62,864 nt of DNA from Paracidovorax anthurii (GTDB lineage Bacteria; Pseudomonadota; Gammaproteobacteria; Burkholderiales; Burkholderiaceae_C): assembly GCF_003269065.1 (NCBI RefSeq), contig NZ_QLTA01000033.1, positions 1 to 62,864 on the forward strand. Reading direction: 5' to 3'. This document shows, in pieces, positions 8,729-32,437 of this stretch (position 1 is its first letter; each line of letters starts with the position of its first letter). The translations under genes and the position numbers were made by a program. The notes beneath the pieces were generated by a model. That model saw only the letters and a program-made list of their open reading frames with translations, was not told where the DNA came from and ran no database searches.

Positions 8729-8756
8729 CGGATCGCGCGAAAACAGTCAATGCCGG

Positions 8757-10646
8757 TCAGAAGCTGAAGCCCAGGCGCAGGTGCAGCCGCAGCGCCTTGG
8801 CCTGCACGCCGTAGGCGATGTCGGCCTGCAGCGGGCCCACGGGGCTGCGCCAGCGCAGGCCGGCGCCCACGCCCACGCGCGGGTCCAGGTCGCCCACGCG
8901 GTCGGCCACGGCGCCGGCGTCCACGAACACGGCGCTCTCGAAGTCGGTGCGGTTGCCGCGCAGCTCGATGGGCCGCTGCCATTCCATGCTGGCCACGGCG
9001 AGGTAGCGGCCGCCGTAGAGCGTGCCGTTGTCGGTGCGCGCGCCGATCTTCTGGTAGCCGTAGCCGCGCACGGTGGTGTCGCCGCCGGTGAGAAAGAGCT
9101 GGGTCACCGGGATGTCGGCGCCGTCCCGCGCGATCACCGCGCCGCCCTCGGCGCGCAGCGACAGCCGGCTCGCGCGCGTTACGCCCTCGCCCATGTCCAC
9201 CCGGCCCATGGGCACGAAGGCCTGCCCGCGCAGGCGCGCGCGCAGGAACGGGTCGCGCTCGGGCCGCAGCGTGGTGCCCGCGCCCAGTTCCGCCGCGATG
9301 CCGTAGCCGCGCGTGGGGGCGGTGTCGCTGTTGAAGTAGCGGCCGGTCCAGCCGTAGTTGGCGCTGATGGCGCTGCTGGAGGGCGGCGCATCGGTGCCCC
9401 GGCTCTTGGCCGTGTCGTACTGCAGGAAGTAGCTGCGGTCGATGTGGCCGTCGCTCTTGGTGCGCCCGCCGCGCAGGCGGCTGCTGTCGGTGTCGTAGCT
9501 GCCGGTCTGCTCGCGCTGCAGTTGCGCGCCGCCGAACCAGCGCCAGCCGTCCTCGCCCGGCAGGTCGGTCCATTCGGTGGAGGCCAGCCGGGTCTTCCGG
9601 TCGATGGCGATCTTGCTCACCGCGCGCCAGCCGATGCCGGGCAGGCGGTTGTGGATGTGGTCCAGGCTCAGGCGCGGGCCGCTGTCGGTGGAGACGCCCA
9701 CGCCGAAGACGACCTTCTTGAGCGGCGCCTCGCGCACCTGGGCCGTGACCGGCGCGGCCTGCGGATCGGTGCCCTCGGTGTCGAGCGCGAGGAACACGGC
9801 GTCGTAATAGCCGCTGCTGGCCAGGCGCGACTGGGCGTCGAGCAGCGCGGCCTCGGAGTAGTCGGCGCCGGTGGGCAGCCGCGCGATGCGGCGCGCGCCG
9901 TCGGGGTCGTAGCGCTCGCTGCCGCGCACGCGCAGCGGCCCGAAGCGGTAGGCGGGGCCGGGCGCGTAGGTCACGCCCAGCCGGGCCTCGGCGCGGTCGG
10001 CGTCGATCTCGGCGCGGCTCGCATCGATGCGGGCCGTGGGGTAGCGCCGCGCCTGCAGCTGGCGCAGGCCGTCGGCCTTGGCGCCGTCCCAGGCATCCTG
10101 CGTGAAGGGCTGGCCGGGCTGCAGCGGCCAAGCGCGCTGGATGCGCTCCTTGCGCCGGGCGAATTCGGGCGATTCCGCCTCCGGGCCGGTGAAGGCGACG
10201 TCGGTGCTGGTGACGCGCGCCATCGGGCCGGGCTCCACGTCCACGGTGATGGCGCGCGGGGCGGCCGCGCCGGGCGTCTCCTTCAGGGCGATGGCGAGCG
10301 TGGGGCTGAAGTAGCCCAGGGTGGCGAGCAACTCGCGCGCGTTCGCCTCGGCCGCGCCCAGCAGGCGCGAGAGTTCGCCGGCCTGCAGGTCCGGCAGGCG
10401 GCGAAAGCGCTGCAGCTCCATGTGGCGCGTGAGCAGTTCGCGCACGGCCTCGGGGCCGCGCACTTCGAGGGTGAACGCCTCGGCCCCCGTGCCGGCGGGG
10501 CCGGCATCGGAGGCGAGGGTGGCGGTGTCGTCGTCGCTGTCCGCCTTGTCGCGGGCGCCGGGCAGCAGGCTGCAGCCCTGGAGCGCCATGAGACTCAGAA
10601 GCAGCAACGCCGGCCAACGGGCCGGCGCTGAGGAAAGGCTGGGCAT
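8757..10646 (-). CDS. tamA: TamA, outer-membrane Omp85-type component
   Basis: 629 residues. A hydrophobic leader (WPALLLLSLMALQGC) ends in a Cys that could be a lipobox, though Gln at -2 is unusual. The N-terminal half is POTRA-like. The C-terminal half is an Omp85 barrel with LFLTGGDTTVRGYGYQKIG (the VRGY lid-lock motif), ending LHLRLGFSF with the terminal Phe of a beta-signal. I chose ATG 10646 because longer in-frame reading runs into the upstream VWA gene. The VWA stop is only 5 bp upstream, so the genes are co-transcribed. Confidence 0.93.
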   Translation of the reverse strand: MPSLSSAPARWPALLLLSLMALQGCSLLPGARDKADSDDDTATLASDAGPAGTGAEAFTLEVRGPEAVRELLTRHMELQRFRRLPDLQAGELSRLLGAAEANARELLATLGYFSPTLAIALKETPGAAAPRAITVDVEPGPMARVTSTDVAFTGPEAESPEFARRKERIQRAWPLQPGQPFTQDAWDGAKADGLRQLQARRYPTARIDASRAEIDADRAEARLGVTYAPGPAYRFGPLRVRGSERYDPDGARRIARLPTGADYSEAALLDAQSRLASSGYYDAVFLALDTEGTDPQAAPVTAQVREAPLKKVVFGVGVSTDSGPRLSLDHIHNRLPGIGWRAVSKIAIDRKTRLASTEWTDLPGEDGWRWFGGAQLQREQTGSYDTDSSRLRGGRTKSDGHIDRSYFLQYDTAKSRGTDAPPSSSAISANYGWTGRYFNSDTAPTRGYGIAAELGAGTTLRPERDPFLRARLRGQAFVPMGRVDMGEGVTRASRLSLRAEGGAVIARDGADIPVTQLFLTGGDTTVRGYGYQKIGARTDNGTLYGGRYLAVASMEWQRPIELRGNRTDFESAVFVDAGAVADRVGDLDPRVGVGAGLRWRSPVGPLQADIAYGVQAKALRLHLRLGFSF

Positions 10647-10651
10647 GAAGA

Positions 10652-11839
10652 TTATTTTGACAGCAGCCGCATGGCCTCTTCGAGCCCCTTGAGGGACAAA
10701 GGGTGCATCCGCCCCCCCAGCAACTGTAGGATGAGGCCGATACTTTGCCGGTACTGCCACACGCCCTGCGGTTCGGGGTTGATCCAGGCGTGTTTCGGGA
10801 AGGCGTGCGTGAGCCGCTGCAGCCACTCGGCGCCGGGCTCCTCGTTGTTGTATTCCACGCTGCCGCCGGGCTGCAGGATCTCGTAGGGGCTCATGGTCGC
10901 GTCGCCCACGAAGATCAGCTTGTAGTCGCGGTTGTACTTGCGGATGAGGTCCCAGGTGGGGAACTTCTCCGCGAAGCGGCGCCGGTTGTTCTTCCACACG
11001 TAGTCATAGACGCAGTTGTGGAAGTAGTAGAACTCCAGGTGCTTGAACTCGCTGCGGGCGGCGGAGAACAGCTCCTCCACCCGCTGCACGTGCTCGTCCA
11101 TCGAGCCGCCCACGTCCATGAGCAGCAGCACGCGCGCGTTGTTGTGGCGCTCGGGCACCATCCTGATGTCGAGCCAGCCCGCGTTGGCGGCCGTGCTGCG
11201 GATGGTGTCCGGCAGATCCAGCTCCAGCGCGTTGCCCTCCCGCGCGAAGCGGCGCAGGCGCCGCAGGGCCACCTTGATGTTGCGCGTGCCCAGCTCCTGG
11301 GTGTCGTCGTAGTCGCGGAAGGCGCGCTGGTCCCAGACCTTCACGGCGCTCTTGTTGCGGCCCTGGCCGCCGATGCGCACGCCCTGCGGGTTGGTGCCGC
11401 CATGGCCGAAGGGGCTGGTGCCGCCGGTGCCGATCCACTTGCTGCCGCCCTCGTGGCGCTCCTGCTGCTCTTCCAGGCGTTTTTTCAGCGTCTCCATGAG
11501 CTCGTCCCAGCCCATCTTCTCGATGGCGGCCTTCTGCTCGGGGGTGAGCTCGCGCTCCAGCACCTGGCGCAGCCAGTCGGTGGGGATCTCCTTGCGGAAG
11601 TCGGCCACCAGCTCCACGCCCTTGAAGTAGGCGCCGAACGCGCGGTCGAACTTGTCGAAGTGCTTCTCGTCCTTGACGAGCACGGTGCGCGCGAGGTGGT
11701 AGAAGTCGTCCTGGCTCCAGCCGCCCTCGGAGCGCGGGCCCACCACGCCCGCCTCCAGGGCCTCCAGCAGCGCGAGGTATTCCTTGACCGACACCGGCAG
11801 TTGGCCGGCGCGCAGCGCGTAGAAGAAGTCGATCAGCAT
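10652..11839 (-). CDS. VWA-domain protein, CoxE/YehP-like, partner of MoxR ATPase
   Basis: 395 residues. The N-terminal helical region includes LIDFFYALRAGQLPVSVKEY. A Gly-rich linker (GGTSPFGHGGTNPQG, about 139-155) leads to a C-terminal von Willebrand A domain. The MIDAS motif reads DVGGSM (about 242-247), with Gly where DxSxS would have its first Ser, and a later FVGDATMSPYEI stretch. Such proteins act with MoxR AAA+ ATPases in cofactor insertion or complex maturation. It sits in the same operon as a MoxR gene, separated by two small genes, and is directly upstream of tamA. Confidence 0.88.
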   Translation of the reverse strand: MLIDFFYALRAGQLPVSVKEYLALLEALEAGVVGPRSEGGWSQDDFYHLARTVLVKDEKHFDKFDRAFGAYFKGVELVADFRKEIPTDWLRQVLERELTPEQKAAIEKMGWDELMETLKKRLEEQQERHEGGSKWIGTGGTSPFGHGGTNPQGVRIGGQGRNKSAVKVWDQRAFRDYDDTQELGTRNIKVALRRLRRFAREGNALELDLPDTIRSTAANAGWLDIRMVPERHNNARVLLLMDVGGSMDEHVQRVEELFSAARSEFKHLEFYYFHNCVYDYVWKNNRRRFAEKFPTWDLIRKYNRDYKLIFVGDATMSPYEILQPGGSVEYNNEEPGAEWLQRLTHAFPKHAWINPEPQGVWQYRQSIGLILQLLGGRMHPLSLKGLEEAMRLLSK

Positions 11840-14524: not shown

Positions 14525-17092
14525 TCACGACAGCGCGTTCGATGCCTTGGAGATCGGGCAGCCGAACAGGTCCCCAACCCAGTCCACCACCTGTTCCAGC
14601 GCGTAGCCCAGGGCCACCATGGCCTGCTGCACCTGCGCCGCCAGCGCGCCCAGGCCCTGCAGCAGGCTGGCCAGGGCCTTGCCGAGCTGCTGGAATTGGT
14701 CCTTGAGGATCTGGCCGATCAGCTCCAGGCCGTTGACGAAGTTGCGCCACTGGTCCTTGGCCCAGCGCAGGAAGTCGGCCAGGCTGGAGAGCACCGCCTG
14801 GAGCAGCTCCGACGCCTTCTGCTGCAGCACGGTGAGCAGGTGGCCGGCGACGTCCTTGAGGTGGGTGATGACGCCCGCCACGTCCACATTCAGCAGGGTG
14901 TAGGGGTTGCCCTGGTCGCCCAGGTGCAGGTCGAGCCCGAACAGGCTGAAGTCGAAAAAGCCCGTCACGACCAGCGACTGCAGCGAGGCGGAGAAGCCCA
15001 GCCCGGCGGCGACGCTGAAGTTCGGCAGCCGGATCTGGGGCACCAGCGTCACGCCCCACAGCGTGATCCCGTTCCATTCGATGTCCTGCCAGCCGAAGTT
15101 GAAGCTGAAGGAGGCGCCGAGCTGGGTCTTGTCGGGGTCGAGCAGGAAGGTGATGCTGTGCCCGCTCCAGGCGCCGCAGCCGCCGGCCGGCTGGCCGTTC
15201 TGCACCGCATAGTCCAGCTGGAACCGGTTGTCGGTGGTGGCGAGTGCGTACAGGTGGTCTTCCACCACGTCCAGGAACTGCAGGTAGAGCGAGGAATAGA
15301 AGCGCACCGGGTTCCCGCCGTTCACGCCCGGCACCACGATGCCCTCGGGCGTGGCGGCGATCGCCAGTTGCGGGCCCTGGCCGTTCGGCTTGCGCGTGTC
15401 GGGGTCCCAGCCGGAGAGCCGGAAGACCGAGCCCCAGGCGATGGCCTGCTGCACCAGGATGTAGCCGGAGAAGCCGGCCTTGGCGTTGGCCGCTTCGACC
15501 AGCGTGGCCGTGACCTGCACGTCCGGCTGGCCCAGCAGGGCGAAATCCGCCTGCAGCCCGAAGCCGGCCGGGAACGGGCCGTGGTCGCCGATCGACTGCA
15601 ACTGCGCGCCTTCCACGAACCAGAAGGTGAACTGGCGGATGCTGATGATCGCGTCCAGGAACCGCACCACGTCGGCGATCGCGGGCTCGCCGTCGCGGTC
15701 CAGCGTCTGCGGGGAGAAATCGAGCGCGAATGCCGCGTTGAGCACGTTCGAGACCTGCATCGGCGCCTGGTCGGCCTGCGTCCAGAGCGCGATGCCGTTG
15801 GGCACCTCGAAGTCCACGACCTCGACCTCGAAGCCGACGTCGAACTCGTACTGCGGCGCGTCCGGGTTCTGCAGCTTCAGGGCGCCGCCCGCGCTCAGGG
15901 TCACGCCGGCCGCCGCCGCGCCCACCGTCACGGTGCCGTGCAGGTCCAGGATGTTCACCGTGCGCAGGCCGAAGGGCTGGTTCCAGTCCTTCACGCCGAG
16001 GGTCAGGCTCAGGTCGCCCTCGGACGGGACGATGCGGCCCGTGAGGCTGAGGTCGATGGCGGTGCCCGGCTCGGGATGGAAGGTGCCGGAGGCCTGGGCG
16101 CTGATGCTGCTGTTGCCTTGCCCGGGATCGTCCCAGGTGAGCTGGAAGCCGTTGAACGCGAAGATGCCGTTGTCCATGGCGCTGAACTTATTGTTCAGGA
16201 CCGCCTTGAGCGACTTGTCGCCGCTGTCCTTGGCGTACGAGGCGAACAGATCGAGCTGCGAGACATCGCCCATGAAGTTCGCAACGGCCTTCAGCGAGTC
16301 GGTGAGCTGCAGCGAGGTGAACAGCACGAAGCCGGGCGCGATGTCGAAGTCGCCCGCGATCGCGGGGACGTCTTCGGCGCTCAGCAGGCCGAGCGACGAC
16401 AGGCTGCCGGACTGGCCAGGGATGGTGGACACCACCACGCCGCTGTGGTTGAACACCAGGGCCGACAGCGGCTTCCACAGCGAGCCCGGCGACCATTGCT
16501 CCACCACGGCGCCGACCATGATGCCGGTGCCCTGGCTGGTGCGCTGCACGCCGAGCGCGGCATTCACGAAAGGCTGGCCGGAATAGAGCAGGCCGCCCTG
16601 CCCGGTGAATTGCACGGACGCGCCCGATGCGTAGCGCAGCGACAGCTGGCCACGGGAGAAGGCGATCTGGTTGGCGGGGCTCCAGTCGAGCATCGCGGGC
16701 CAGAGGCCCTGCAGCGGCCACTGCAGGCTCTGGCCCATGGTCGCGTCGAGCGTCATCTCCACGCCGCCATCCGCGCGGCTGAAGGTCAGCACCACCTGCG
16801 CGTCGGTGTACTGCGTGCTGCTCAGCGTCAGCGTGGCGCCGCCCTGGGTGGCCTGCAGGTCGAGGTCGGCGCCATCGAGCTGGGCCTGCAGCTGCAGCTG
16901 CAGCTGCTTGGTGGAGGGGTTGACCGTCAGGCTCGCGGCGGAGCCGAGCTGCAGCGTGATGCCGTTCAGGTAGTCGCCCAGCGCGGTCTGGATGGGGCCG
17001 GGGAACGCGTCCTGCGCCAGTTGCAGCAGCTTGGTCGTGTCGGTCGATTGCAGCGCCCCTTGCAGGGTGGTGTAGATGTCGTTGGTGCCCAT
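14525..17092 (-). CDS. 855-aa beta-rich protein of unknown function, last gene of TULIP-like operon
   Basis: I do not recognise the family. No signal peptide is present. Residues about 1-740 are dominated by alternating polar/apolar strands (for example LQLQLQAQLDGADLDLQA, DLSLTLGVKDWNQPFGLR). The last ~110 residues are amphipathic helices (LKDVAGHLLTVLQQKASELL, then ALASLLQGLGALAAQVQQAM). A strand-rich body plus lipid-facing helices suggests binding of a hydrophobic ligand or membrane. It starts 4 bp after the stop of the preceding gene. The N-terminal helix (TTKLLQLAQDAFPGPIQTAL) resembles the ends of its neighbours. Confidence 0.75.
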   Translation of the reverse strand: MGTNDIYTTLQGALQSTDTTKLLQLAQDAFPGPIQTALGDYLNGITLQLGSAASLTVNPSTKQLQLQLQAQLDGADLDLQATQGGATLTLSSTQYTDAQVVLTFSRADGGVEMTLDATMGQSLQWPLQGLWPAMLDWSPANQIAFSRGQLSLRYASGASVQFTGQGGLLYSGQPFVNAALGVQRTSQGTGIMVGAVVEQWSPGSLWKPLSALVFNHSGVVVSTIPGQSGSLSSLGLLSAEDVPAIAGDFDIAPGFVLFTSLQLTDSLKAVANFMGDVSQLDLFASYAKDSGDKSLKAVLNNKFSAMDNGIFAFNGFQLTWDDPGQGNSSISAQASGTFHPEPGTAIDLSLTGRIVPSEGDLSLTLGVKDWNQPFGLRTVNILDLHGTVTVGAAAAGVTLSAGGALKLQNPDAPQYEFDVGFEVEVVDFEVPNGIALWTQADQAPMQVSNVLNAAFALDFSPQTLDRDGEPAIADVVRFLDAIISIRQFTFWFVEGAQLQSIGDHGPFPAGFGLQADFALLGQPDVQVTATLVEAANAKAGFSGYILVQQAIAWGSVFRLSGWDPDTRKPNGQGPQLAIAATPEGIVVPGVNGGNPVRFYSSLYLQFLDVVEDHLYALATTDNRFQLDYAVQNGQPAGGCGAWSGHSITFLLDPDKTQLGASFSFNFGWQDIEWNGITLWGVTLVPQIRLPNFSVAAGLGFSASLQSLVVTGFFDFSLFGLDLHLGDQGNPYTLLNVDVAGVITHLKDVAGHLLTVLQQKASELLQAVLSSLADFLRWAKDQWRNFVNGLELIGQILKDQFQQLGKALASLLQGLGALAAQVQQAMVALGYALEQVVDWVGDLFGCPISKASNALS

Positions 17093-17096
17093 GGCG

Positions 17097-18974
17097 TCAC
17101 TGCCCCAGGTTGTTCAGGGCGGAGCGGGCGAACCGGGTCGCCGCCTCGCTGATCTGCGAAAGGTTCTGGCCGATGTAGTCGTTCAGCGCGGAGACGATGG
17201 CCTCGATGAGCTGCGACTGGCCGATGAAGGCATTGATGAAGGCGGCGTACTGCGCATCGGTGTCCGACAGGGTGATGGTGAGCGCCACGTCCTTGTCGCC
17301 GGCCACCAGCTGGATCTGGCTGTAGGTGAGCTGCAGTTCCTGGGGCGTGTCGCCGGAGGCGGTCAGCGAGGTCTGGATGCCGAGCGTGCCGCTCTGGTTC
17401 TGGAGGTTGAGGCTCAGCGTGCCGCTCAGCGGGATCGGCGCGTTCTGGCCGACCTGCACGTTCAGCGTGAAGGGGGTGCTGGCCGTGGCGGGCGGCGAGG
17501 GTACGGTGCGCGGCGTGCCCTTGACATTCACCGTCGGGCCCGGGTTCATGGAGCCCAGCAGCAGTTTCGCATTGGCCTGCTGGTTGGCGCCGAAGCGGAG
17601 GTTGTCCGGCGGCACGACCACGTTCGAGAGGCCATGGATGACCAGGTTCTGCAGCACGATGGCCGAGATGGAGATGTTGACGCTGCCGAACACCTGGGTG
17701 GTGAACGGGCCGGGGATGCTCAGATCGGTGGCGGTGTAGGGCTCCAGCACCGGCGACCCCGATCCCAGCACCAGCGTGGGAAGGTACACGTAGCTGTTGC
17801 GGTCGTTGAGCGCGCCGCGCGCGCGGTTGAACAGGTACTTGTCCACCGCGTTCGCATCGGTGTCCACGGTGCTGTTGGCCACCTGCGTGCTGCCGAAGAT
17901 GTCGTTGAAGGCGCTGTCCAGCTGCTCGTTGAGCAGGGTTTGCACCTGGCCGCGGTTGCCTTTGTCCATCAGCGCGCCATTGACCTGGTCGGTCAGCATC
18001 TGCGACGCTTCGTTGGTGGACAGCACCTGTTTGAAGAACGCGCTCCAGGGCCCGTAGAAGGCGGTGGTCTGGATGTAGGACGGAAAGGGCACCGGCGCGA
18101 TGCTCTGGTATTGCAGGTTCTGCAGCGTGAAGGCGGGCACGGTCCCCTGCACCGCGGTCAGCCGGATGGTGTCGAGGGCGATCTGCAGGGCTTTGCCGCC
18201 GCTGGCCACGGTCACTTTCGTGTCGGACACCACCTTGGCGTTGCCCATGGTCAGCAGGGCGATGCCGGTGGAACTGCTGTCGAAGCCGTTCGCGTGCCGG
18301 GGCGAGGGCGTGAATCCCAGCGTCGGCGGCGGAGCTACCACGTTGCCCTTCTTGTCGACGAAGCACAGGCACTGCGTCAGCGTGAAGCCCAGGCCATCGA
18401 AGGGCGTGGGAGGCTGGGTCGCGGGGTCCTGCCCCGCCTCCGGGCCCGCGAGCGCGAGCGCCTCGTTCCAGGCCTGCCCCTTGGAGGGGTAGGCATTGAG
18501 GTTCAGCGTGATCTGCGCGGCATAGCCATCGTTGCTGGAGCTGACCGTGGGCGGCTGCCCGCTCACCTGGATGTTCGCCAGGCCGTCGATCTCGATGCGG
18601 CTCACGTTCAGGTCGGGGCCGACGCCGGCATAGGGCTTCACGTTCAGGTTCTGCGTCCTGATGTAGGTGAAGGCCGCCTGGGCGTCGTCGATCATCTGCT
18701 GGGTGACCTGCGGGCCGGGTTTCGCCTGGCTCAGCCGGATGATCTGAGGCATCAACGCGTTGAACCAGGAAACGGCCAGGTCGTTCGAGATATCCACCGC
18801 GCCGCTGATGTTGTTCAGGTCCCAGTTGTTGCCCTTCAGCGGCAGGTACGGCGTGCCGTCCGACTGCTTCATGTTCGACAGCGCGACCGGCAGGAACAGG
18901 CTGTTGTCCGGCCTGTTGTCGTTCGCCTTCTGCATCAAGGTGTTGTAGACGAAGTTGAATAGCTGCAAGCCCAT
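17097..18974 (-). CDS. 625-aa protein of unknown function, TULIP-like operon
   Basis: No recognised family and no signal peptide. Helical parts (about 30-110 and 290-400) alternate with regular strands such as RIEIDGLANIQVSG and VNISISAIVLQNLVIHGLSN. The C-terminus carries a strand pair and a long amphipathic helix (QLIEAIVSALNDYIGQNLSQ). That ending resembles the TULIP-type endings of the 212-aa and 468-aa proteins of this operon. The start at ATG 18974 has a good GGGGAG ribosome site and lies 31 bp after the isoprenyl synthase stop. Likely role: ligand or lipid binding, inferred only. Confidence 0.75.
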   Translation of the reverse strand: MGLQLFNFVYNTLMQKANDNRPDNSLFLPVALSNMKQSDGTPYLPLKGNNWDLNNISGAVDISNDLAVSWFNALMPQIIRLSQAKPGPQVTQQMIDDAQAAFTYIRTQNLNVKPYAGVGPDLNVSRIEIDGLANIQVSGQPPTVSSSNDGYAAQITLNLNAYPSKGQAWNEALALAGPEAGQDPATQPPTPFDGLGFTLTQCLCFVDKKGNVVAPPPTLGFTPSPRHANGFDSSSTGIALLTMGNAKVVSDTKVTVASGGKALQIALDTIRLTAVQGTVPAFTLQNLQYQSIAPVPFPSYIQTTAFYGPWSAFFKQVLSTNEASQMLTDQVNGALMDKGNRGQVQTLLNEQLDSAFNDIFGSTQVANSTVDTDANAVDKYLFNRARGALNDRNSYVYLPTLVLGSGSPVLEPYTATDLSIPGPFTTQVFGSVNISISAIVLQNLVIHGLSNVVVPPDNLRFGANQQANAKLLLGSMNPGPTVNVKGTPRTVPSPPATASTPFTLNVQVGQNAPIPLSGTLSLNLQNQSGTLGIQTSLTASGDTPQELQLTYSQIQLVAGDKDVALTITLSDTDAQYAAFINAFIGQSQLIEAIVSALNDYIGQNLSQISEAATRFARSALNNLGQ

Positions 18975-19005
18975 GGTGGCTCCCCTCTCTCTCGGAAAAA
19001 TTGAA

Positions 19006-20028
19006 TCAGTAGGGTCGGTTGACGACGTGCATCGTGATGTCGTGCAGGGCCCGCAGGTGCGGGCCGGCGGGCAGGTTCTCCAGGAACTGCACGGCCTGCA
19101 GTGCCGTGCTGCGCGCCTGCGCGTAGGCCATCGCGAAGGCATCCGAGCGGCGGATCTCGTCGACCCAGGCGTCGATCTGCTGCGGGGGCGGTGTTTCCTT
19201 GCTGCGCAGGTAGCGCACCATGGGGTGCTCGTCGCCGAACAGCTTCATCGCGTGGATGATGGGCAGGGTGATGCGGCGCTGGTGCAGATCGATGCCCTTG
19301 CTCTTGCCGGCCTCCTCGTCCGAGTGCGCCAGATCGAAGATGTCGTCCATCATCTGGAAGGCGCGTCCCATGTAGCGGCCGAAGGAGCCCAGGCGGCGCA
19401 GCTCGGAGGTGCGCGCGCGCATGAGCGCGGCGCCGGATTCGCAGGCCAGCCCGAACAGCACGGCGGTCTTGCGGTCCACCGTGGTGAGGTAGCGGCTCAG
19501 CAGGGAGTCCGGGTGCCAGTAGGGCTGGGTGGTCATCTCGTCGATCTCGCCGCGGCAGATGTCGAAGGCCGAGTCCAGCACCCACTTCACGAGCTGCATG
19601 TCGTTCATGTCCTCGATCGCATCGACGAAGCAGCGCACCGCCTGCAGGAACTGCATGTCGCCGATCAGGATCGCCATCTCGGTGCCGCGCGCCGCGTTCA
19701 CGCTGCTGTGGCCGCGCCGCAGCGAGGCGTGGTCCACGATGTCGTCGTGGATCAGGCTCGCCACGTGCAGCATCTCCAGCGAGGCGGAGGCGCGCATCAC
19801 CTTGTAGGGCAGGTCGCCCCCGGGCTGGAACACGCGGGCCGTGAGCAACAGCATCAGCGGCCGCAGCTTCTTGCCGCCCCGGTAGAGCGCCATCTCGGCG
19901 TCCGACAGGTAGCCCTTCTGCGGCTCCAGCGCGTCGGCCAGTTCGCGCTCGAAGCCCCGCATCTCCGCCGCCATCAGGTCCTGCAGGATGGCCTGGACCG
20001 GGTCCTGCCCGGCGGCAGCGATCCTCAC
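19006..20028 (-). CDS. trans-isoprenyl diphosphate synthase (long-chain polyprenyl type)
   Basis: 340 residues with the full set of prenyltransferase motifs: GGKKLRP (51-57), first Asp-rich motif DDIVD (95-99) followed by RRGHSS, and second motif DDIFD (228-232). The residues just before the first motif (HVASLIH) are small and match octaprenyl-synthase-like enzymes, suggesting a C20 or longer product from IPP plus an allylic diphosphate. The GTG start overlaps the stop of the 468-aa gene (GTGA), so it is translationally coupled within the TULIP-like operon rather than with quinone genes, which argues for a dedicated role. An additional housekeeping ispB is expected elsewhere. Confidence 0.88.
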   Translation of the reverse strand: MRIAAAGQDPVQAILQDLMAAEMRGFERELADALEPQKGYLSDAEMALYRGGKKLRPLMLLLTARVFQPGGDLPYKVMRASASLEMLHVASLIHDDIVDHASLRRGHSSVNAARGTEMAILIGDMQFLQAVRCFVDAIEDMNDMQLVKWVLDSAFDICRGEIDEMTTQPYWHPDSLLSRYLTTVDRKTAVLFGLACESGAALMRARTSELRRLGSFGRYMGRAFQMMDDIFDLAHSDEEAGKSKGIDLHQRRITLPIIHAMKLFGDEHPMVRYLRSKETPPPQQIDAWVDEIRRSDAFAMAYAQARSTALQAVQFLENLPAGPHLRALHDITMHVVNRPY

Positions 20029-21431
20029 GGTTGCGCGTCCACCAGGGCCTGGGCCAGCGGCCGGACCAGAGCGCGCTCCAGCGCGTCGGCGATGCGATCG
20101 TGCAGCAGGCTCTTGATGAAGCGCGCTTCCCCGAGCGCCTCGCGCACGGCCTGTGCGAGCCCCTGGCCCAGGGAGTTGTCCCAGCCGCCGTCGTCGAAGT
20201 GCAGATCGAAGCCGTCCAGCTCGACGCGCCCGTCGATCAGCACCGGCGTGCCATCCGCCTGCGCGCCGAATTGCAGGGACACATGGCAGGCGAGCCGCGC
20301 CTGCAGCCCGCCCGCGGTCAGGGCCACGGGCTTGAGCGCCGCCAGCCGCGCGGCGTGCTCGGCGATGTCGGCCTGCATCTTGCGCACGAAGGCGCGCTCG
20401 TCCTCGTTGAGCACCATGGTCCAGGTGTTGCCCTGCGCGTCGCGGCCGCCGATCGGGCTGCCGTTCAGGAACTGGTGCACTTCTTCCACGGTGTTGGGCT
20501 CCGCAGGGGTGCCGTTCTGCACCACGGTGTATACGCCGTCCTTGGTGAGCTGCGGAACGTTGTCGATCTTCTTTTCCACGTTCTTGTCGTGGATGGTGTT
20601 CTTGACGACGCTGGAGCCGAAGCTCAGCGTGGCCGCCGCCGCCTGGTTGTAGGGGTTGTTCGGATCGATATTGTTTTGCGGCGAGTTCGTGCTTCCGGCC
20701 AGCGCGGTCAGGGCGGTCAGCAGCGCCAGTTTCTGGGTCTGCGCGTTGCCGTTGTAGGTCGTGCCGCCGTACTGCTTGTCCTTGTCGTTGACGTAGCTGC
20801 CGTCGCCATTGCCGTTGCCGTTGTTCAGCGCGGTATGGGTGTCCTCCGCCATGTCGGAGATGGCCTGCGTGCCCCAGCCGGCCTGGAAGGCATAGGCCAG
20901 CGGATCGGTGAACACGTCGTTGAAGGCGGCGCGGTGGTTGGAATAGGTGGTCAGCAGCGTCGCGCCGTTGCCGCCGGGCACGTTCTGCAGCGCGGCGCGC
21001 TGGTCGTTCGCGGTCTGGATCCAGGCGGGATGCGCGTTGGTGTCGTCGGTGCCGCCGCGCCGCCGCGCTCCCGGCGGCAGGGCCGTGCCGGCTCCGTCCA
21101 GGTCGGCTTCCCAGACCTGCGTGCCCTGCACGGTGTACGTGCCTTGCAGCGCGATGCCTTGCAGGCGCACCGCCAGCACGCAGCGGCCCTGTGCGTCGCT
21201 GCTGTGTTCGATCACGGGCAGGCCGTCCTGGGGCAGCGACAGCTGCATGGCGGACAGCTCGATGCCCAGGGAGCCGCGCGCGAAGCCGGCCTGTGCGGGC
21301 ATGTCCAGCGAGCGTGCCAGCGGCAGTGGCGGGACGTCGCTGATGCCGATCTGGCGGGGCAGGGCGGCATTCAGGGGGACGGTGGACCGATTTTTCCAGC
21401 CGTCTTGAAAAGCTTGCATTCCAGCGCTCAT
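20025..21431 (-). CDS. 468-aa protein of unknown function, TULIP-like operon
   Basis: No family recognised. An N-terminal strand-rich part (about 50-130; GIELSAMQLSL, CVLAVRLQGIALQGTYTVQG) leads to a middle Asn/Gly/Thr-rich low-complexity stretch (about 150-260; LNNGNGNGDGSYVNDKDKQ). The C-terminal strand-plus-helix unit is ARLACHVSLQFGAQ, RVELDGFDLHF, then LGQGLAQAVREALG and IADALERALVRPLAQALV. The last part has the strand-then-amphipathic-helix look of TULIP modules. A GAGGAG ribosome site precedes the ATG at 21431. It overlaps the synthase gene by 4 bp. Confidence 0.72.
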   Translation of the reverse strand: MSAGMQAFQDGWKNRSTVPLNAALPRQIGISDVPPLPLARSLDMPAQAGFARGSLGIELSAMQLSLPQDGLPVIEHSSDAQGRCVLAVRLQGIALQGTYTVQGTQVWEADLDGAGTALPPGARRRGGTDDTNAHPAWIQTANDQRAALQNVPGGNGATLLTTYSNHRAAFNDVFTDPLAYAFQAGWGTQAISDMAEDTHTALNNGNGNGDGSYVNDKDKQYGGTTYNGNAQTQKLALLTALTALAGSTNSPQNNIDPNNPYNQAAAATLSFGSSVVKNTIHDKNVEKKIDNVPQLTKDGVYTVVQNGTPAEPNTVEEVHQFLNGSPIGGRDAQGNTWTMVLNEDERAFVRKMQADIAEHAARLAALKPVALTAGGLQARLACHVSLQFGAQADGTPVLIDGRVELDGFDLHFDDGGWDNSLGQGLAQAVREALGEARFIKSLLHDRIADALERALVRPLAQALVDAQP

Positions 21432-21469
21432 GAAAATTCTCCTCATTCGATTGACCGGAGCCGGTCGTG

Positions 21470-21868
21470 TCAGGCGATGTCGACGTTGGCCGTGACCAGC
21501 ACGTGGTCCGCGTCCGCGGTGGAAATGTTCAGGTTCGAGGGGGTCAGCTTCAGGCTGATGCCGTCGAGCTGCAGGGGGATGTCCGGCACGCTGAACGAGG
21601 CGTTCTCGTTGAGGGCCTTCTGTGCCGCGCTCTGGGCGGCGGATGTGATGAAGGGCGTGGCCACGCCGATGATGATGTTGGCCACGTGCTCCAGGAGGCC
21701 GGCATTGAATTTCTCCCACCCGCTGCCATCGGCGGCATAGGTGATCGTGAAGGCGGGCAGCGGCTGGAGCTGCAGCTGCACCGTTTTCGATCCGGAGACG
21801 ACGGGCGCGACGGTGACCGTCACGGGCGAGGGCTTGGTGCTGAAAGTGGCTTTTGCAAAATCAACCAT
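21470..21868 (-). CDS. 132-aa P47/TULIP-like C-terminal module
   Basis: Residues about 15-55 are strands (PVTVTVAPVVSG, TVQLQLQPLPAFTITY). A central amphipathic helix follows (WEKFNAGLLEHVANIIIGVA through SAAQSAAQKAL), then strands DIPLQLDGISLKLTPSNLNI and ending HVLVTANVDI. As remembered, the final half of clostridial P47-like TULIP proteins looks like this, so this gene and the preceding 306-aa gene may together be one P47-type protein encoded as two chains. The genes are truly separate: 13 bp apart, with AGGAG before this ATG. Confidence 0.65.
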   Translation of the reverse strand: MVDFAKATFSTKPSPVTVTVAPVVSGSKTVQLQLQPLPAFTITYAADGSGWEKFNAGLLEHVANIIIGVATPFITSAAQSAAQKALNENASFSVPDIPLQLDGISLKLTPSNLNISTADADHVLVTANVDIA

Positions 21869-21881
21869 GGTGTGGCTCCTG

Positions 21882-22802
21882 TCACAGCAGATTCGATGCG
21901 GCTTCGACCGCGCAGGCGGCGGGGACCAGCCACCACGAGACGCCGACCTCGGCGGTGGCGGCGAACGTGGCGGAGACGTTGACGTTCGGCAGGGTCGAGC
22001 CGAGCGCGACCGAGGCGTTGCTGATGCCGCCGTTCAGCGAGTAGCTGCCCGTCCAGTTGCTGTCGCTCTTGTTGATCTTGGCGTCGTCCATCTTCTGGAC
22101 GAGTGCGCTGCTGTATTTCTGCAGCAGCGTGGACAGCAGCCGGCGCCCGACCAGCACGCCGAGCGGCTTCTGCGGCCATTGCACGCCGCTGATGTCCGGC
22201 GTGCCGTTCGCCAGCAGGTTGCTGGCCAGCACCAGATGGCTCCCCGTGACGGTCACGACCGGCGGCGTGAAATCCTGGCCCTCGATCGTGATGCAGGGTG
22301 GAATCTGGTAGGCCTTGAGCAGGTCCTGCACTTTCGTGAACACGATGCCGCACATCACCTGCAGCATGAACTCCGAGGCGCCGGTCGGATTGATCGGCAG
22401 CACCGCGACCGGGCCGAGCTGGATCTGGCGGTTGGACACCGTCACCTGGGCGAAGACGGTCAGCGCGAAATTCAGCTTCGACTTCGTTCCATCCTGCAGG
22501 TTGAAGGTGGTGGTCACGGAGGCCAGCTGCACCTGGAACATCTGGTCCGTGGGCTGGGGCGGCTTGGTCTGCCCGGAGGGCGTGAAGGTGTGCGGGTCGT
22601 TCCACTGGGTGAGGGTGGGCGGCGCCAGCACGAATTGCGGTGCGGCATCGATGCTCCAGTCCACGGAGGTGATGCCCATCTGGCCGACGGCCTCGGTGCC
22701 CTGGAAGAACTTCTGCCGGGCCTGGGCGTTGCCATAGAGCTGGGTCATCCCCTTGTTGAGGGTGCCGGCATCCAGCACCAGCGCTGCGTCGTAGTTACTC
22801 AT
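21882..22802 (-). CDS. 306-aa P47/TULIP-like N-terminal module
   Basis: Without a signal peptide, the protein begins MSNYDAALVLDAGTLNKGMT. It shows the order seen in P47-type TULIP proteins: short N-terminal helix, ITSVDWSIDAAPQFVLAPP, paired strands (QVQLASVTTTFNLQ, NFALTVFAQVTVSN), central helix (FMLQVMCGIVFTKVQDLLKA) and a later helix LLSTLLQKYSSALVQKM. It ends with a GVSWWLVPAACAVEAAS strand. P47 relatives are tubular lipid-binding proteins found beside insecticidal and botulinum toxin genes. The match is by pattern only. The start overlaps the protease stop by 8 bp. Confidence 0.65.
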   Translation of the reverse strand: MSNYDAALVLDAGTLNKGMTQLYGNAQARQKFFQGTEAVGQMGITSVDWSIDAAPQFVLAPPTLTQWNDPHTFTPSGQTKPPQPTDQMFQVQLASVTTTFNLQDGTKSKLNFALTVFAQVTVSNRQIQLGPVAVLPINPTGASEFMLQVMCGIVFTKVQDLLKAYQIPPCITIEGQDFTPPVVTVTGSHLVLASNLLANGTPDISGVQWPQKPLGVLVGRRLLSTLLQKYSSALVQKMDDAKINKSDSNWTGSYSLNGGISNASVALGSTLPNVNVSATFAATAEVGVSWWLVPAACAVEAASNLL

Positions 22803-23424
22803 GTTCCAACTCTCCTTTGCATGTCGGGTGTGTCGAACGGGGGCTGTGCGTCCAGTAGGTTTCCATCCACTCGCCGCCATGGCGGTAGTGCTGGGGGAAG
22901 TCGTCGAAATCGACCAGGGCACGGCCGCACTGCGGGTCGGCGACGGAGATCGCGCGCCGCGTGCGGCAGTAGCCGTCCACGAGCACGTAGTGCTGCGGCC
23001 CGGCCTGCCAGCGGATGGCGACCGCCATCGGGCGGCCTTCTTCCAGCTCGCGCATCAGGCGGCGGAAGGGGGGGCGCCCGCTGCTCCAGCCGGCCAGGCA
23101 GTTCACGTAGCGCAGCGTGCGTTCCATGGCGGCCTGCTGGTTGAAGCGCTCTTCCTGCAGCAGGCTGGGCGGCGGGGCGCTGTCGGGGCGCACGTCGTCC
23201 GGGGCCAGGATGCGCCAGGCCAGCGTGTCCTGCTGCCACGAGGTGTCGCCGTAATGGGCGGCGACGGCGCAGGTGACCGCGGCCCAGCACCAGTTGGAGC
23301 GCAGTTGCGGCTCCAGCGCCAGTTGCAGCTGCTGCTCGTCGCTGGCCTGCGCGGCGAGGGCGCCGGCGCGCACCGGGCCGATGCGCCGCGTGGTGCGCGC
23401 CAGCGGCTCGATCCTCAGCTTCAT
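22795..23424 (-). CDS. papain-like cysteine protease (C70/AvrRpt2-like)
   Basis: 209 residues with a papain-fold catalytic layout: Gln40 and Cys46 in EPQLRSNWCWAAV, His145 in GPQHYVLVDG and Asp163 in ISVADPQ. The NWCW signature resembles the C70 (AvrRpt2) and related papain-like families. No signal peptide is visible. Its ATG overlaps the preceding stop by ATGA and its 3' end overlaps the next gene by 8 bp, so it is an integral operon member. It may process a partner protein of the operon or be an exported effector. Neither is shown by the sequence. Confidence 0.8.
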   Translation of the reverse strand: MKLRIEPLARTTRRIGPVRAGALAAQASDEQQLQLALEPQLRSNWCWAAVTCAVAAHYGDTSWQQDTLAWRILAPDDVRPDSAPPPSLLQEERFNQQAAMERTLRYVNCLAGWSSGRPPFRRLMRELEEGRPMAVAIRWQAGPQHYVLVDGYCRTRRAISVADPQCGRALVDFDDFPQHYRHGGEWMETYWTHSPRSTHPTCKGELEHE

Positions 23425-24059
23425 GGGAAGGACACGCACTGCGGCAGCAGCTTGTTCAGCTGCTGGCTGACGATGTCGTTGACCTGCGATGAGATCAGGG
23501 ACCGGATGGCGCCCTTGGCGGCATCCAGGATCAGGTTCTCCACGGGCTGCAGCAGGTAGTTGAGCGGGCCGAGGTCGTTGATCCAGATCGAGGCGTTGCC
23601 GTAGTTGAAATTCGCGCTCATGCCGGAGATGCTGTTGAGGCACAGCTTCCCGCCCGAGGTGCTGGCCTGGAACTGGGCGCTGCCGGCGATGGTCGGGTTG
23701 TCGATGCGGATGTTGCCGGAGATGCCGGGGTGTACGAACAGCACGCGCACGGAGCCGCTCGCCTGGGCCGAGAGGGAACTGGTGAGCTGCGCGTGAAAGT
23801 TCAGGGTGCCCGAGAGATTGGTGCCGGACGCGTTGAGGTTGCTGACCACCATGTCCTGGATCTGCAGCGAGGAAATGCCGGTCAGGTCCGTCACCGAATA
23901 CGAGGCGGAGCCGATCCCGATGCTGGTCGAGCCGGAGGCGACGTTCTGGTAGGGGTCGTAGCCCGCGCCGGTGATGGCCGGCTTGATCTCGCGGTTCAGT
24001 TGCGAGACGAGCCCTTGCAGGACCTGGTTGATGATCTGGGTGAACGGATCGTTGCTCAT
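23421..24059 (-). CDS. 212-aa TULIP-like protein, first gene of the operon
   Basis: The layout is that of a single tubular lipid-binding module. An N-terminal amphipathic helix (PFTQIINQVLQGLVSQLNRE) is followed by about six alternating strands (TSIGIGSASYSV, LQIQDMVVSNLNAS, GTLNFHAQLTSSL, SVRVLFVHPGISGNIRI) and a long C-terminal amphipathic helix (YLLQPVENLILDAAKGAIRS and SSQVNDIVSQQLNKLLPQ). No signal peptide is present. The stop overlaps the protease ATG. Family assignment is inference from the pattern; a structure prediction would settle it. Confidence 0.68.
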   Translation of the reverse strand: MSNDPFTQIINQVLQGLVSQLNREIKPAITGAGYDPYQNVASGSTSIGIGSASYSVTDLTGISSLQIQDMVVSNLNASGTNLSGTLNFHAQLTSSLSAQASGSVRVLFVHPGISGNIRIDNPTIAGSAQFQASTSGGKLCLNSISGMSANFNYGNASIWINDLGPLNYLLQPVENLILDAAKGAIRSLISSQVNDIVSQQLNKLLPQCVSFP

Positions 24060-27867: not shown

Positions 27868-28962
27868 TCAGGTTTTCCGTTCGTTGCCGTGTTCGCTGCT
27901 TTCCGCGCTGTTGGTCTCGTCCTGCTCGGTCACGGGATCCAGGTGGATATGGGGCTGGGCCTGGGTGGCGTGCTGCGGGGCCAGTTCCACGTCTCCCCCT
28001 GCCGGGGGCGCCTCCGCCGGTTTCGAGAGCGACTTGTAGAGGGCGGAGAGGTGGGCCTTGGCCACGATCCAGCCGTTCAGGCTGGTCCAGGCCATGGCGT
28101 TGGAGGCCGCGGACCGCTGGTAGTCGTTGTCGTTGCCGGACATCACCTTGCGCAGCGTGATCAGCGGCCCGAGCGGCAGCGTGAGCCCGAAATTCAGGAG
28201 CCCGCGTGCCGTGATGCCGCCCATCATGGTCTGCTTGTCGATCTGCTCGTTCACCACGTTGCCGGCCGTCGCTCCCGGGAGGAAGGACTTCACCAAGGTG
28301 CTGGTCAGGTCGGACACCGTGTCGGCGGTGGCGCTGATCGCGCGCTGCGCGAGGGCGCTGACCATCATGGAGATCGGCAGGGCCAGTTCGGGCGAGACAC
28401 CGCGGTCCGTGAGCGATTTCTCGACCAGGGGGCGGAGCTCCGCATTCACCGCCACGTTGGTCATGGCGGCGGCGATGGCCGTCCACATGTCGTTGAAGCC
28501 CGCCATCACGCGGGGGCCCTCGCGCTGCAGGACCGTTTCGCTGGGCAGCAGGATGGCATCACCCAGCCGGGGCATGGTCTTCATGGTCTCGCCGATGGCT
28601 TCCTTCAGCACCGCGCTGGATGAACCGCCCACGAGGTTGGACAGGTTGGCGATGGCCTCCCGCGACACGTCGCCGTTGCGCGATCCCGCAAGGATGGCCA
28701 CGGAGGCCGTCTGCAGGAGCCATGCGCCGGCATGCGCGCCGAAATAGGTCGCTGAGCGCTGGCCCAGGGTGGCGCGCATGGCCTTGAAGGTATCGCCCCA
28801 GGTCGGCGGTTCCGGCGGCTGCGTGTCGCCTGGAGGGGGCGCCTCGATGTCTCCAGGGGGCGCCGCCGTGTACATCGGGTGCGTGGTGTTCGACACGACG
28901 GAAATCCCCGAGTGGGTCGAGGAGGCGATGCTGATCTGGTCGATCTGCTGCCGCCGGGACAC
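27868..28962 (-). CDS. candidate type III effector, 5' end displaced by a duplication
   Basis: About 364 residues from a GTG start. A Ser/Thr/Gln-rich N-terminus (SRRQQIDQISIASSTHSGIS) and a Pro-rich stretch (PPGDIEAPPPGDTQPPEPP) precede a mostly helical, membrane-active-looking body and an acidic C-terminus. No enzyme motif is recognised. It lies downstream of a chaperone-effector pair on the same strand. A foreign 261-bp segment begins 57 bp upstream of the GTG and no better start or ribosome site is seen, so the native N-terminus (the secretion signal) may be lost. It may be a pseudogene. Confidence 0.55.
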   Translation of the reverse strand: MSRRQQIDQISIASSTHSGISVVSNTTHPMYTAAPPGDIEAPPPGDTQPPEPPTWGDTFKAMRATLGQRSATYFGAHAGAWLLQTASVAILAGSRNGDVSREAIANLSNLVGGSSSAVLKEAIGETMKTMPRLGDAILLPSETVLQREGPRVMAGFNDMWTAIAAAMTNVAVNAELRPLVEKSLTDRGVSPELALPISMMVSALAQRAISATADTVSDLTSTLVKSFLPGATAGNVVNEQIDKQTMMGGITARGLLNFGLTLPLGPLITLRKVMSGNDNDYQRSAASNAMAWTSLNGWIVAKAHLSALYKSLSKPAEAPPAGGDVELAPQHATQAQPHIHLDPVTEQDETNSAESSEHGNERKT

Positions 28963-29019
28963 CTTGTTGGTGTCCAGCGGGCCCGAGAAACCCGGGAGGG
29001 AGCCGGAGAGATTGTCGAT

Positions 29020-29280
29020 GTGGCGCAGTGCACCTACCCGCTCACCGGCATCGGCTGCGTGAAGCGCATCTATATCGACCTGGCCACGCTGGCCTGCACG
29101 CCGGAGGGCCTCGTGCTCATCGACGCGGTGCCCGGCCTGGAGCTGGCCGAACTCGAACGCCTCGCGGGCCTGCCCATCCGCGCGGCCTGAATCCCCCGGA
29201 GACCTCTTCCATGACCCTCTCCCCCTAAGCCTTCATCTGCGACGCCGTCCGCACGCCCTTCGGTCGCTACGGCGGCGCGC
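29020..29280 (+). repeat. 261-bp duplicated copy of the pcaJ 3' end and pcaF start
   Basis: It aligns without gaps to 34765-35025 with seven differences. It contains the last ~56 codons of a PcaJ, the 20-bp spacer and the first ~23 codons of PcaF, where a C-to-T change makes a stop (TAA) after the fifth codon. It lies in reverse orientation to the surrounding effector genes, as an inserted fragment. The remaining 155 bp up to the next gene (29281-29435) hold nothing recognisable. Confidence 0.9.
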
Positions 29281-29435
29281 GCCGGACTGTCGCCAAGGGG
29301 CGATCCGTGTTTTCCGCAGACCGGATTCGTGCGGCTCCGCCTTCCGGGAGACCGCCACGTTGCTTCGCCGCAGGCCGTGCCGGCGGCACCGCCCGCGGCT
29401 TCATACCCTGTTCCCTCCCGGATGGCGCTCCTGTT

Positions 29436-31448: not shown

Positions 31449-31471
31449 GGGGAACTCCTGGTATCTGGGGA

Positions 31472-32437
31472 TCAGTGCACCGGCGCCGGTGCGTGGCTGC
31501 CGTCCATGCTGGCGGCGAGTGCGGCGAAGCCGTCGAGCTGGGCGGCCAGATCGCCGCCATCCAGGCCCGTGGCGTCCCAGCGCGTTTGCAGCAGGGTGCC
31601 TTCCGGGGTCATGCTCAGGCTGCAGCCGGCGATGAGCATCAGCTCCACGTTGGCCTGGAGTGCCGCGAGCCGCGTGGGCCCGTCGGCCAGCGGCCGGTCC
31701 ACCAGGGCCGACAGCAGCAGCGTGTGGCCGTCGCCGCAGGCCACGATCTGCACGTGCGCCGTGCCGATCCGCACGCTGTCGCTCAGCGGGAGGTCATGGG
31801 TATCGGCGGAAGCGACCCCCAGCTCCTGGAAGGCCTGCTCCAGCAGGGGCTTGTGCCAGCGTGCGTCGATCTGCGACTGCACCGCGGCGGCCATGCCGGC
31901 CGGCAGCGGCGGAGCGGCGTCGGCGGTGTCGGCCGGCGGGGTGTCCTGGGGCGCGCCCTGGCGCCGGGCATGGGCGTCGATCATTTCGGGCAGATGGCCC
32001 TGGACCGCCACCGCGCTCTCGCGCAGCAGCCCGCTGAAGTAGCTGAGCTGGAAAAGATCCTGGGCCAGTCCCGATGCGTCTCCAGCGTGGGCGCCGGGCA
32101 CGCCGTACACGACCACGGCCCTGCCGGTCGCATCCATTCCGATACCGAACGGCCCGGCGGCCATGGCCGTTGCATTGAGGTGCAGCAGCAAGGTGGTCCA
32201 TACGGGTTCGGCCACGCCGATCGGCCGGGGCTGCGAGGCCACCAGGGCCCAGCGTTCCTCGGGCTTTTCGTGGATCAGCAGGGGGGAGAAGGTGATGCCG
32301 TCCTGCTGGACGGGGCGCGCGTTCGCGAACGACTCCGCAGTGTCCGGGTCGCTGAAGTGCAGGGCGGCTTCGCGCAGCCAAGCGACGGCTTCCGGAGAGT
32401 GGGAATACGATTCCTGGGAGGCGGTTGTGATGCCCAT
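31472..32437 (-). CDS. type III secretion chaperone with tandem CesT-like domains
   Basis: 321 residues with two copies of the class I chaperone pattern. In the first half, LLLHLNATAMAAGPFGIGMD, a VVVYGVPG strand and a helix LAQDLFQLSYFSGLLRES. In the second half, SVRIGTAHVQIVACGDGHTL, TRLAALQANVELMLIAGCSL and LAAQLDGFAALAASM. A Pro/Ala linker (PQDTPPADTADAAPPLPAG) joins them. Such proteins hold effectors for the injectisome. It is first in the operon, behind a perfect PIP box, and just before the effector, so it is probably that effector's dedicated chaperone. Confidence 0.7.
   Translation of the reverse strand: MGITTASQESYSHSPEAVAWLREAALHFSDPDTAESFANARPVQQDGITFSPLLIHEKPEERWALVASQPRPIGVAEPVWTTLLLHLNATAMAAGPFGIGMDATGRAVVVYGVPGAHAGDASGLAQDLFQLSYFSGLLRESAVAVQGHLPEMIDAHARRQGAPQDTPPADTADAAPPLPAGMAAAVQSQIDARWHKPLLEQAFQELGVASADTHDLPLSDSVRIGTAHVQIVACGDGHTLLLSALVDRPLADGPTRLAALQANVELMLIAGCSLSMTPEGTLLQTRWDATGLDGGDLAAQLDGFAALAASMDGSHAPAPVH

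Follow-up and report, generated by a model that had tools for sequence, protein, structure and literature searches.

Organization of the gene cluster

The window analysed here is a contig of 62,864 nucleotides (C33, NZ_QLTA01000033.1) from the 5.47-Mb genome of Paracidovorax anthurii (70 % G+C). At 14525..24059 it harbours eight open reading frames (ORFs), all on the minus strand and numbered g1 to g8 in the order of transcription, which combine a long-chain-type isoprenyl diphosphate synthase (IPPS) with proteins predicted to adopt the tubular lipid-binding TULIP fold and with a papain-like protease:

23421..24059, minus strand: g1, 212 aa, probable single TULIP domain resembling JHBP and mite group-7 proteins (JHBP profile; Grp7_allergen in orthologues)
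23424..23438, minus strand: conserved Cys208 of g1, residues 208-212 (invariant in 10 aligned sequences)
22795..23424, minus strand: g2, 209 aa, papain-like cysteine protease of the C70/C39 type, an optional enzyme (Pfam matches over cut-off)
21882..22802, minus strand: g3, 306 aa, possibly TULIP-related (weak profile evidence), ending in a C-terminal cysteine tag
21885..21914, minus strand: C-terminal cysteine tag of g3, Cys297 to the end (pattern in 27 of 59 g3-family copies)
21470..21868, minus strand: g4, 132 aa, apparently a detached C-terminal module of the g3 protein (g4 profile against long g3-family proteins)
20025..21431, minus strand: g5, 468 aa, predicted TULIP protein with a long helical insertion, core gene (structure model)
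20334..21113, minus strand: helical insertion within g5, spanning about residues 107-366 (model secondary structure; conservation)
19006..20028, minus strand: g6, 340 aa, long-chain-type IPPS, core gene (PF00348, E 4.8e-55)
17097..18974, minus strand: g7, 625 aa, two predicted tandem TULIP-like domains (BPI-like double), core gene (structure model)
14525..17092, minus strand: g8, 855 aa (about 1250 aa in most relatives), ending in a C-terminal cysteine tag (orthologues in 33 of 40 loci)
14528..14560, minus strand: C-terminal cysteine tag of g8, Cys845 to the end (pattern in 32 of 34 g8 copies)

The genes overlap by 4 bp (g1/g2 and g5/g6) or 8 bp (g2/g3), or are separated by gaps of 13 bp (g3-g4), 38 bp (g4-g5, the largest), 31 bp (g6-g7) and 4 bp (g7-g8). 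An earlier note, prepared from the sequence alone, had described eight minus-strand genes with gaps below 40 bp, and rechecking returned the same coordinates and lengths. The dN/dS values, 0.12-0.52 in four pairwise comparisons with relatives, suggest purifying selection on every one of the eight genes; since all of them are conserved as proteins, the operon appears to be more than a chance arrangement. A curated Pfam cut-off is exceeded by just two of the eight proteins, g2 and g6, and the Pfam scan yielded nothing convincing for g3, g4, g5, g7 and g8 of the window.

TULIP-fold proteins g5 and g7

Structure models assign TULIP folds to g5 and g7, each displaying a curled β-sheet around a long helix that can be superposed on BPI and JHBP. 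The g7 model (predicted local distance difference test score, pLDDT, 91.5) is a double TULIP, and that of g5 (pLDDT 88.4) a TULIP interrupted by a mostly helical insertion of about 260 residues, in which D112, G115, W186, T198, N215 and F271 are invariant. The underlying alignments comprise 38 rows for g7 (leaving out the broken copy of locus L002, the short one of L042, and L043) and 36 rows for the g5 structure alignment (leaving out L002, L015 (cut), L024 (a near copy), L042 and L043). In case of g5, the fold assignment rests on VIA-align 2, which re-aligned the candidates supplied by Foldseek; Foldseek by itself gave no match to g5 at E≤0.001, and a profile search of the PDB with g5 returned three unrelated chains only.

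The closest solved folds to the g5 and g7 models are JHBP, takeout, a beta-carotene-binding protein, mite group-7 allergens, BPI and LBP. Those nearest to g7 include carriers of isoprenoids, i.e., the beta-carotene-binding protein (9ink) and JHBP with juvenile hormone II or III; a takeout structure has been solved with ubiquinone, according to the title of a reference in PMC6791001. The earlier note had supposed TULIP folds for all six proteins of the operon that it could not assign to a family. This is borne out by confident models with tubular lipid-binding folds for g5 and g7; profile matches below the cut-off point the same way for g1 and g3, and in case of g8 none of 31 orthologues has a TULIP match in Pfam.

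Isoprenyl diphosphate synthase g6

The g6 protein belongs to the polyprenyl synthetase family PF00348 (186.9 bits versus a cut-off of 27) and contains GGKKLRP as well as both Asp-rich motifs (DDIVD and DDIFD), in agreement with the intact long-chain-type prenyl synthase recognised earlier. Relative to the first Asp-rich motif, position -5 is occupied by Ala and position -4 by Thr or Ser in each of the 40 g6 sequences; in the IPPS family, small residues just before this motif go along with long product chains. Judged by these residues, g6 is a synthase of the long-chain type. No NCBIfam name could be given to it, as all 16 models listed remained under their cut-offs (best GerC3_HepT, 196.5 bits). 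Since the genome holds two further PF00348 genes besides g6, the latter is probably not needed for housekeeping. It has the lowest dN/dS of the eight genes in three of the four comparisons.

Conserved core, distribution and mobility

The first distant relative was encountered on a plasmid of Streptantibioticus cattleyicolor (L002), where g5, g6, g7 and a protein in place of g8 occur in the same order. Its g7 homologue is split over two frames (at about 13700), so this copy may be broken or carry a sequencing error. Scanning genome_contigs with a part of g6 selected for its difference from ordinary synthases yielded 39 loci in several phyla, and profile searches were run over the ORFs of 40 loci, i.e., these 39 genome loci plus the plasmid locus. 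Homologues of g5, g6 and g7 were each found in 39 of the 40 loci, compared to 38 for the g3 family, 33 for g8 and 9 for g1. The constant core is thus a long-chain-type IPPS flanked by two proteins of predicted TULIP fold, usually accompanied by the g3/g4 family and g8.

In all 39 loci with a callable IPPS (38 genome loci and the plasmid locus; the IPPS of L043 could not be called), the order g5-g6-g7 is maintained on a single strand, a co-occurrence that is conditional on this synthase subfamily, as the loci were selected by g6. A survey of gene neighbourhoods, which the earlier note had recommended, finds the synthase together with g5 and g7 throughout. The three genes adjoin each other in all of these loci but L042, which has a g3-family gene between g5 and g6; gaps of 0.5 to 0.6 kb between called core ORFs occur in L002 (broken g7) and L039 (split g6 ORF). 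The rows of the g6 tree, which was calculated without the short IPPS ORF of L039 and without L043, and in which the root and the rows intended as own-genome paralogues were disregarded, represent six phyla (Actinomycetota, Pseudomonadota, Bacteroidota, Bacillota, Ignavibacteriota and Acidobacteriota). In L043, a Kofleriaceae metagenome-assembled genome in which g5, g6 and g7 were not called, a 490-aa ORF (10302-11774) following the synthase match was clustered with g8 by BLAST and ends in the cysteine pattern.

The eight genes are one horizontally moving unit of sparse distribution. Units of Azospirillum and Paludibacterium contain all eight genes in order, their g6 proteins being 87.6 and 89.1 % identical to that of the window. 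Within the genus, g7 is present in 5 of 17 species (that of the window included), and among 398 sampled genomes of the phylum in two, namely the window's own and one with a weak partial match; a single-row or two-row g7 query recovered 1 of 150 genomes in the family and 1 of 398 in the phylum, each time the window's own. The eight genes are flanked by a GGDEF-EAL gene and a cytochrome c gene in the window and in G549; in three relatives (G544, G541 and G538) these two flanking genes are 0.1 to 0.3 kb apart and represent the empty site. The unit is present without these flanks in the compared stretches of G545, G546 and G547, that of G545 starting inside g2. As regards a phage origin, a scan of viral_contigs with g6 gave 76 pattern matches, none of which was confirmed as a relative.

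Further members g1, g3, g4 and g8

Orthologues of g1 were found in nine of the 40 loci. The JHBP profile covers residues 5-200 of g1 with an E value of 7.7e-4, under the curated cut-off, and Grp7_allergen matches 6 of 10 g1 orthologues (best E 1.9e-4); a further profile search with g1 gave no match.

The g3 family comprises 58-59 ORFs in 38 of the 40 loci, 47 of 59 copies being covered by the alignment. LBP_BPI_CETP_C was matched by 1 of 47 members at E 0.0027, in a scan in which an unrelated family reached 0.0045, and the sole PDB match of the family profile at E≤1 was a JHBP (2rck, E 0.21). Many Actinomycetota loci possess a second g3-family gene without the cysteine tag (L015, L018-L020, L022-L028, L030, L033, L036 and L038), located on the opposite strand in L030, L033 and L036 and with varying C-terminal endings. 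Of the 21 long g3-family proteins (at least 400 aa), 18 are matched in their C-terminal region by a clean g4 profile (E 3e-23 to 8e-8), which identifies g4, at the level of sequence profiles, as the split-off C-terminal part of g3.

Outside its near relatives, g8 shares 14 to 26 % identity with the copy of the window, and 31 members had no informative Pfam match, TULIP included. The over-long ORF of L038 was left out of the g8 alignments, as were L002 and L042 in case of the 31-row alignment. Two lone g8-like proteins, both lacking the tag pattern, are encoded on plasmids: one in Priestia (L004, 10635-13631), with three TIR-domain genes within about 12 kb, and one in Herpetosiphon (L005, 12001-16341), just preceded by an Exo_endo_phos gene. 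No common profile for the TULIP candidates was obtained, the profile comparison interlinking g1, g3, g5 and g7 at no more than 7.3 %; homology of g3 and g8 beyond their tag was likewise dismissed (0.3 % in the profile comparison).

C-terminal cysteine tag

The g3 and g8 proteins end in a similar short pattern, in which a Cys is followed by Ala, Pro or Ser and, a few positions further on, by a small residue. It is present in 32 of 34 g8 copies, corresponding to 23 of 25 lineages (at 60 % identity), the exceptions being L041 (Cys followed by Thr) and L042; Cys845 is invariant in the 31-row alignment, which does not include L042. Within the g3 family, 27 of 59 copies, belonging to 20 of 31 lineages, carry the tag; these are mainly g3 proteins unfused to g4, and that of L034 fits only loosely. 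None of the 40 g5, g6 or g7 proteins each carries the tag, and a slightly different version of the pattern was found in 11 of 486 other ORFs and in one of nine g1 proteins.

Since the Cys residues of the g3 and g8 tags are located about ten residues from the end, rather than four as in a CaaX box, the tag is not of this type. The conserved Cys of g1 is at position -4 in three of ten sequences (L008, L011 and L014) and a residue or so further in the others. On the simplest reading of these sequences, the tag of g3 and g8 would be a common docking, processing or lipidation signal; the boldest reading has it lipidated by the product of g6. Such a common ending suggests that proteins are sorted or modified in a way not yet recognised.

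Protease g2 and variable enzymes

The papain-fold protease proposed in the earlier note is supported by matches of g2 to Peptidase_C39_2 (29.1 bits, cut-off 24) and Peptidase_C70 (27 bits, cut-off 19), and by the invariance of Gln40, Cys46, His145 and Asp163 in an alignment of 11 of the 15 g2 proteins found. Of the 39 genome loci, 14 have a g2-type protease gene, which in L015, L018 and L019 is located past g8, at a distance of 0.6 to 2.7 kb and on the opposite strand; a further copy in L016 is severed by the contig end. Due to this distribution, g2 is to be regarded as one optional enzyme and not as a fixed maturation factor, the former of the two roles (maturation factor or effector) previously suggested.

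Other loci contain other enzymes. Three Bacteroidota loci encode a C58 (YopT-type) family with invariant Cys39, His181 and Asp205 in L012, L013 and L014; the C58 profile was matched over its cut-off of 23 in L014 (23.2) and under it in L013 (18.0), and was not listed for L012 at E≤0.5 even though this protein aligns with the other two. An endonuclease/exonuclease/phosphatase family (Exo_endo_phos, EEP) is over the cut-off in L042 and under it in L032 (E 7.7e-4), L035 (0.011) and L040 (0.049), and a DXD glycosyltransferase (Gly_transf_sug) is over the cut-off in L011. A family of roughly 375 aa, here termed F10, occurs in L010, L016 (twice), L021, L041 and L044. Its invariant E91, K185 and C232 (alignment of five of the six members) recall the catalytic triad of nitrilases; a profile search of the PDB gave no nitrilase and Pfam nothing useful, and this assignment was rejected. 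Taken together, at least one effector-type enzyme or F10 gene is located in or near 21 of the 39 genome loci, or 18 if F10 is not counted. Toxins and injected effectors are known to include several of these variable enzyme types.

Near the end of g8, seven loci (L010, L019, L022, L023, L024, L026 and L027) harbour, on the opposite strand, a family of about 500 aa, whose L010 member, the only one scanned, is a FAD-binding oxidase.

Neighbouring genes in the window

The region at 4436-10997 (minus strand) encodes TamB (PF04357) beside a gene that by eye resembles TamA, an ordinary outer-membrane assembly pair. Beyond the GGDEF-EAL gene, three genes at 27868-32437 (minus strand) resemble type III secretion effectors and a chaperone, the effectors being judged by eye. 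The chaperone candidate (31472-32437) matches CesT with E 5.7e-4 and 20.4 bits, under the cut-off of 22, and its neighbours of 364 and 670 aa had no Pfam match at E≤0.01.

Proposed function and alternative explanations

From the computed folds, synthase type, gene order, mobility, selection, enzymes and tag, we infer a ligand, a route of delivery and a tag chemistry as follows. The g6 synthase would form a polyprenyl diphosphate from the isoprenoid pool of the cell, and the tubes of the TULIP proteins would accommodate the polyprenyl lipid itself or a derivative (alcohol, quinone or conjugate). The g3 and g8 proteins may be built into or anchored on the same particle via their C-terminal cysteine tag, and the loaded complex may protect, assemble or carry a swappable enzyme (g2 in the window) to or across a target membrane. 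Such an action would resemble that of the orfX-p47 proteins beside toxin genes, with the difference of an own lipid supply.

The probability of this full chain is estimated at about 0.42, and its parts differ in strength. The folds and the existence of a gene system are held with high confidence. A polyprenyl ligand of the TULIP proteins is slightly favoured, backed from two sides by the long-chain synthase and by the isoprenoid carriers among the TULIP structures near g7. That the block carries a payload enzyme for conflict with another organism is conceivable and stays somewhat short of an even chance. Several observations weigh against the full chain. In 18 genome loci out of 39, including 13 from Actinomycetota, no effector-type enzyme or F10 gene was recognised; some of these loci contain untyped ORFs next to the core (e.g., L022 and L037). 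F10 is the sole enzyme in 3 of the 21 enzyme-bearing loci. Besides g2 of the window, the one g2 protein scanned singly, only the enzymes of L011, L014 and L042 pass a curated cut-off, and the EEP and glycosyltransferase families also include housekeeping members. In the PDB profile search, g2 matched exclusively (E 0.013 to 0.42) leader-processing peptidases of the C39 type and bacteriocin transporters that contain such a peptidase, so g2 fits maturation as well as attack. Finally, g8 was not found in 7 of the 40 loci, two of which are cut short.

The same gene set could alternatively belong to an isoprenoid natural-product pathway, in which TULIP proteins shuttle intermediates, the g5 insertion acts as cyclase or transferase and the variable enzymes (phosphatase, glycosyltransferase, oxidase) tailor the product. 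Such a pathway would accommodate the constant IPPS next to g5 with the invariant polar residues of its insertion, the EEP and DXD glycosyltransferase neighbours, and the family near g8 in seven loci with its FAD-binding oxidase. However, cysteine proteases of the C58 and C70/C39 types are not known to tailor terpenes, g5 of the window has no match to a cyclase profile in Pfam, and the oxidase, being encoded on the opposite strand, may be unrelated; the pathway is considered unlikely. Still less is to be expected of a role in the producer's own lipid transport, in which the block would move membrane lipids, polyprenols or quinones without any toxin and the protease would only process the carriers: TULIP folds do occur in cellular lipid-transfer proteins (PMC6791001) and the C39 processing peptidases matched by g2 would suit such a role, but a block that is sparse and mobile (5 of 17 species, 2 of 398 genomes), inserted at a clean site and variable in its enzyme content from genome to genome does not.

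A plain toxin operon of the orfX-p47 type with the IPPS as an accidental neighbour is highly improbable, given the lack of a P47 profile match, the dN/dS of g6, which is the lowest in three of four comparisons, and the fact that all 39 loci, which were, however, chosen by the IPPS, have this gene on the same strand as g5 and g7. The most far-reaching version of the lipid-delivery reading would have the polyprenyl serve both as TULIP cargo and as the lipid on the tag (C[AP]xxxA) of g3 and g8, the g5 insertion being the transferase and the particle carrying the exchangeable enzyme. It is very unlikely; if true, it would represent a previously undescribed bacterial weapon or signalling module.

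Comparison with known systems

Most work on tubular lipid-binding proteins concerns those of animals and of a small number of bacterial families. The predicted fold of g5 and g7 is shared by JHBP/takeout and mite group-7 proteins of arthropods and by BPI/LBP/CETP of vertebrates, to which the g1 and g7 families also show weak profile matches. In contrast to these, the present block is bacterial, linked to an IPPS and devoid of evident signal sequences (by eye), with a double g7 and a g5 interrupted by its long helical insertion. We know of no described counterpart of this insertion, of g8 or of the C-terminal cysteine tag. With the heptaprenyl and octaprenyl synthases of the polyprenyl synthetase family, g6 shares the catalytic motifs and the long-chain-type site, yet it is an accessory copy tied to TULIP genes and remains under the NCBIfam cut-offs listed. 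None of the eight proteins matched a known defence system in PADLOC at E≤0.1.

TULIP folds have already been described in bacteria (PMC6791001), where YceB, DUF4403, DUF2140 and DUF2993 represent envelope or secreted-type proteins and not an IPPS-bearing mobile operon. None of these four models appeared in the Pfam scans of the window proteins or of the g7, g3, g1 and g8 families.

TULIP proteins near toxins have likewise been described: according to PMC7020563, orfX-p47 clusters accompany Cry, VIP, RHS and other toxin genes. These clusters resemble the present one in that several TULIP-type proteins per operon stand beside varied toxin-type genes in unrelated bacteria; here, by contrast, the IPPS is a constant member and P47 is not matched. 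The kinship to P47 surmised in the earlier note has to be given up at the sequence level, as P47 (PF06597) matched none of the eight window proteins at E≤1 and nothing in the whole genome. Nor was PF06597 listed at E≤0.1 for 38 g7, 47 g3-family, 10 g1 and 31 g8 members, with g5 scanned in the window and L002, and P47 and OrfX2 were absent from the structural matches listed for g5.

Among the matches listed in the literature searched, whose scope excluded preprints and most subscription journals, no description of a TULIP-IPPS operon was found. Since its constant core and tag match no described kind found, the system is taken as new, built from parts of known kinds. With at least two TULIP families in one operon with an enzyme that may make their ligand, the question of what the carriers bind becomes directly testable. 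In view of its spread over six phyla, its mobility and its changing effector-type enzymes, the system would constitute a new kind of lipid-assisted delivery or conflict system.

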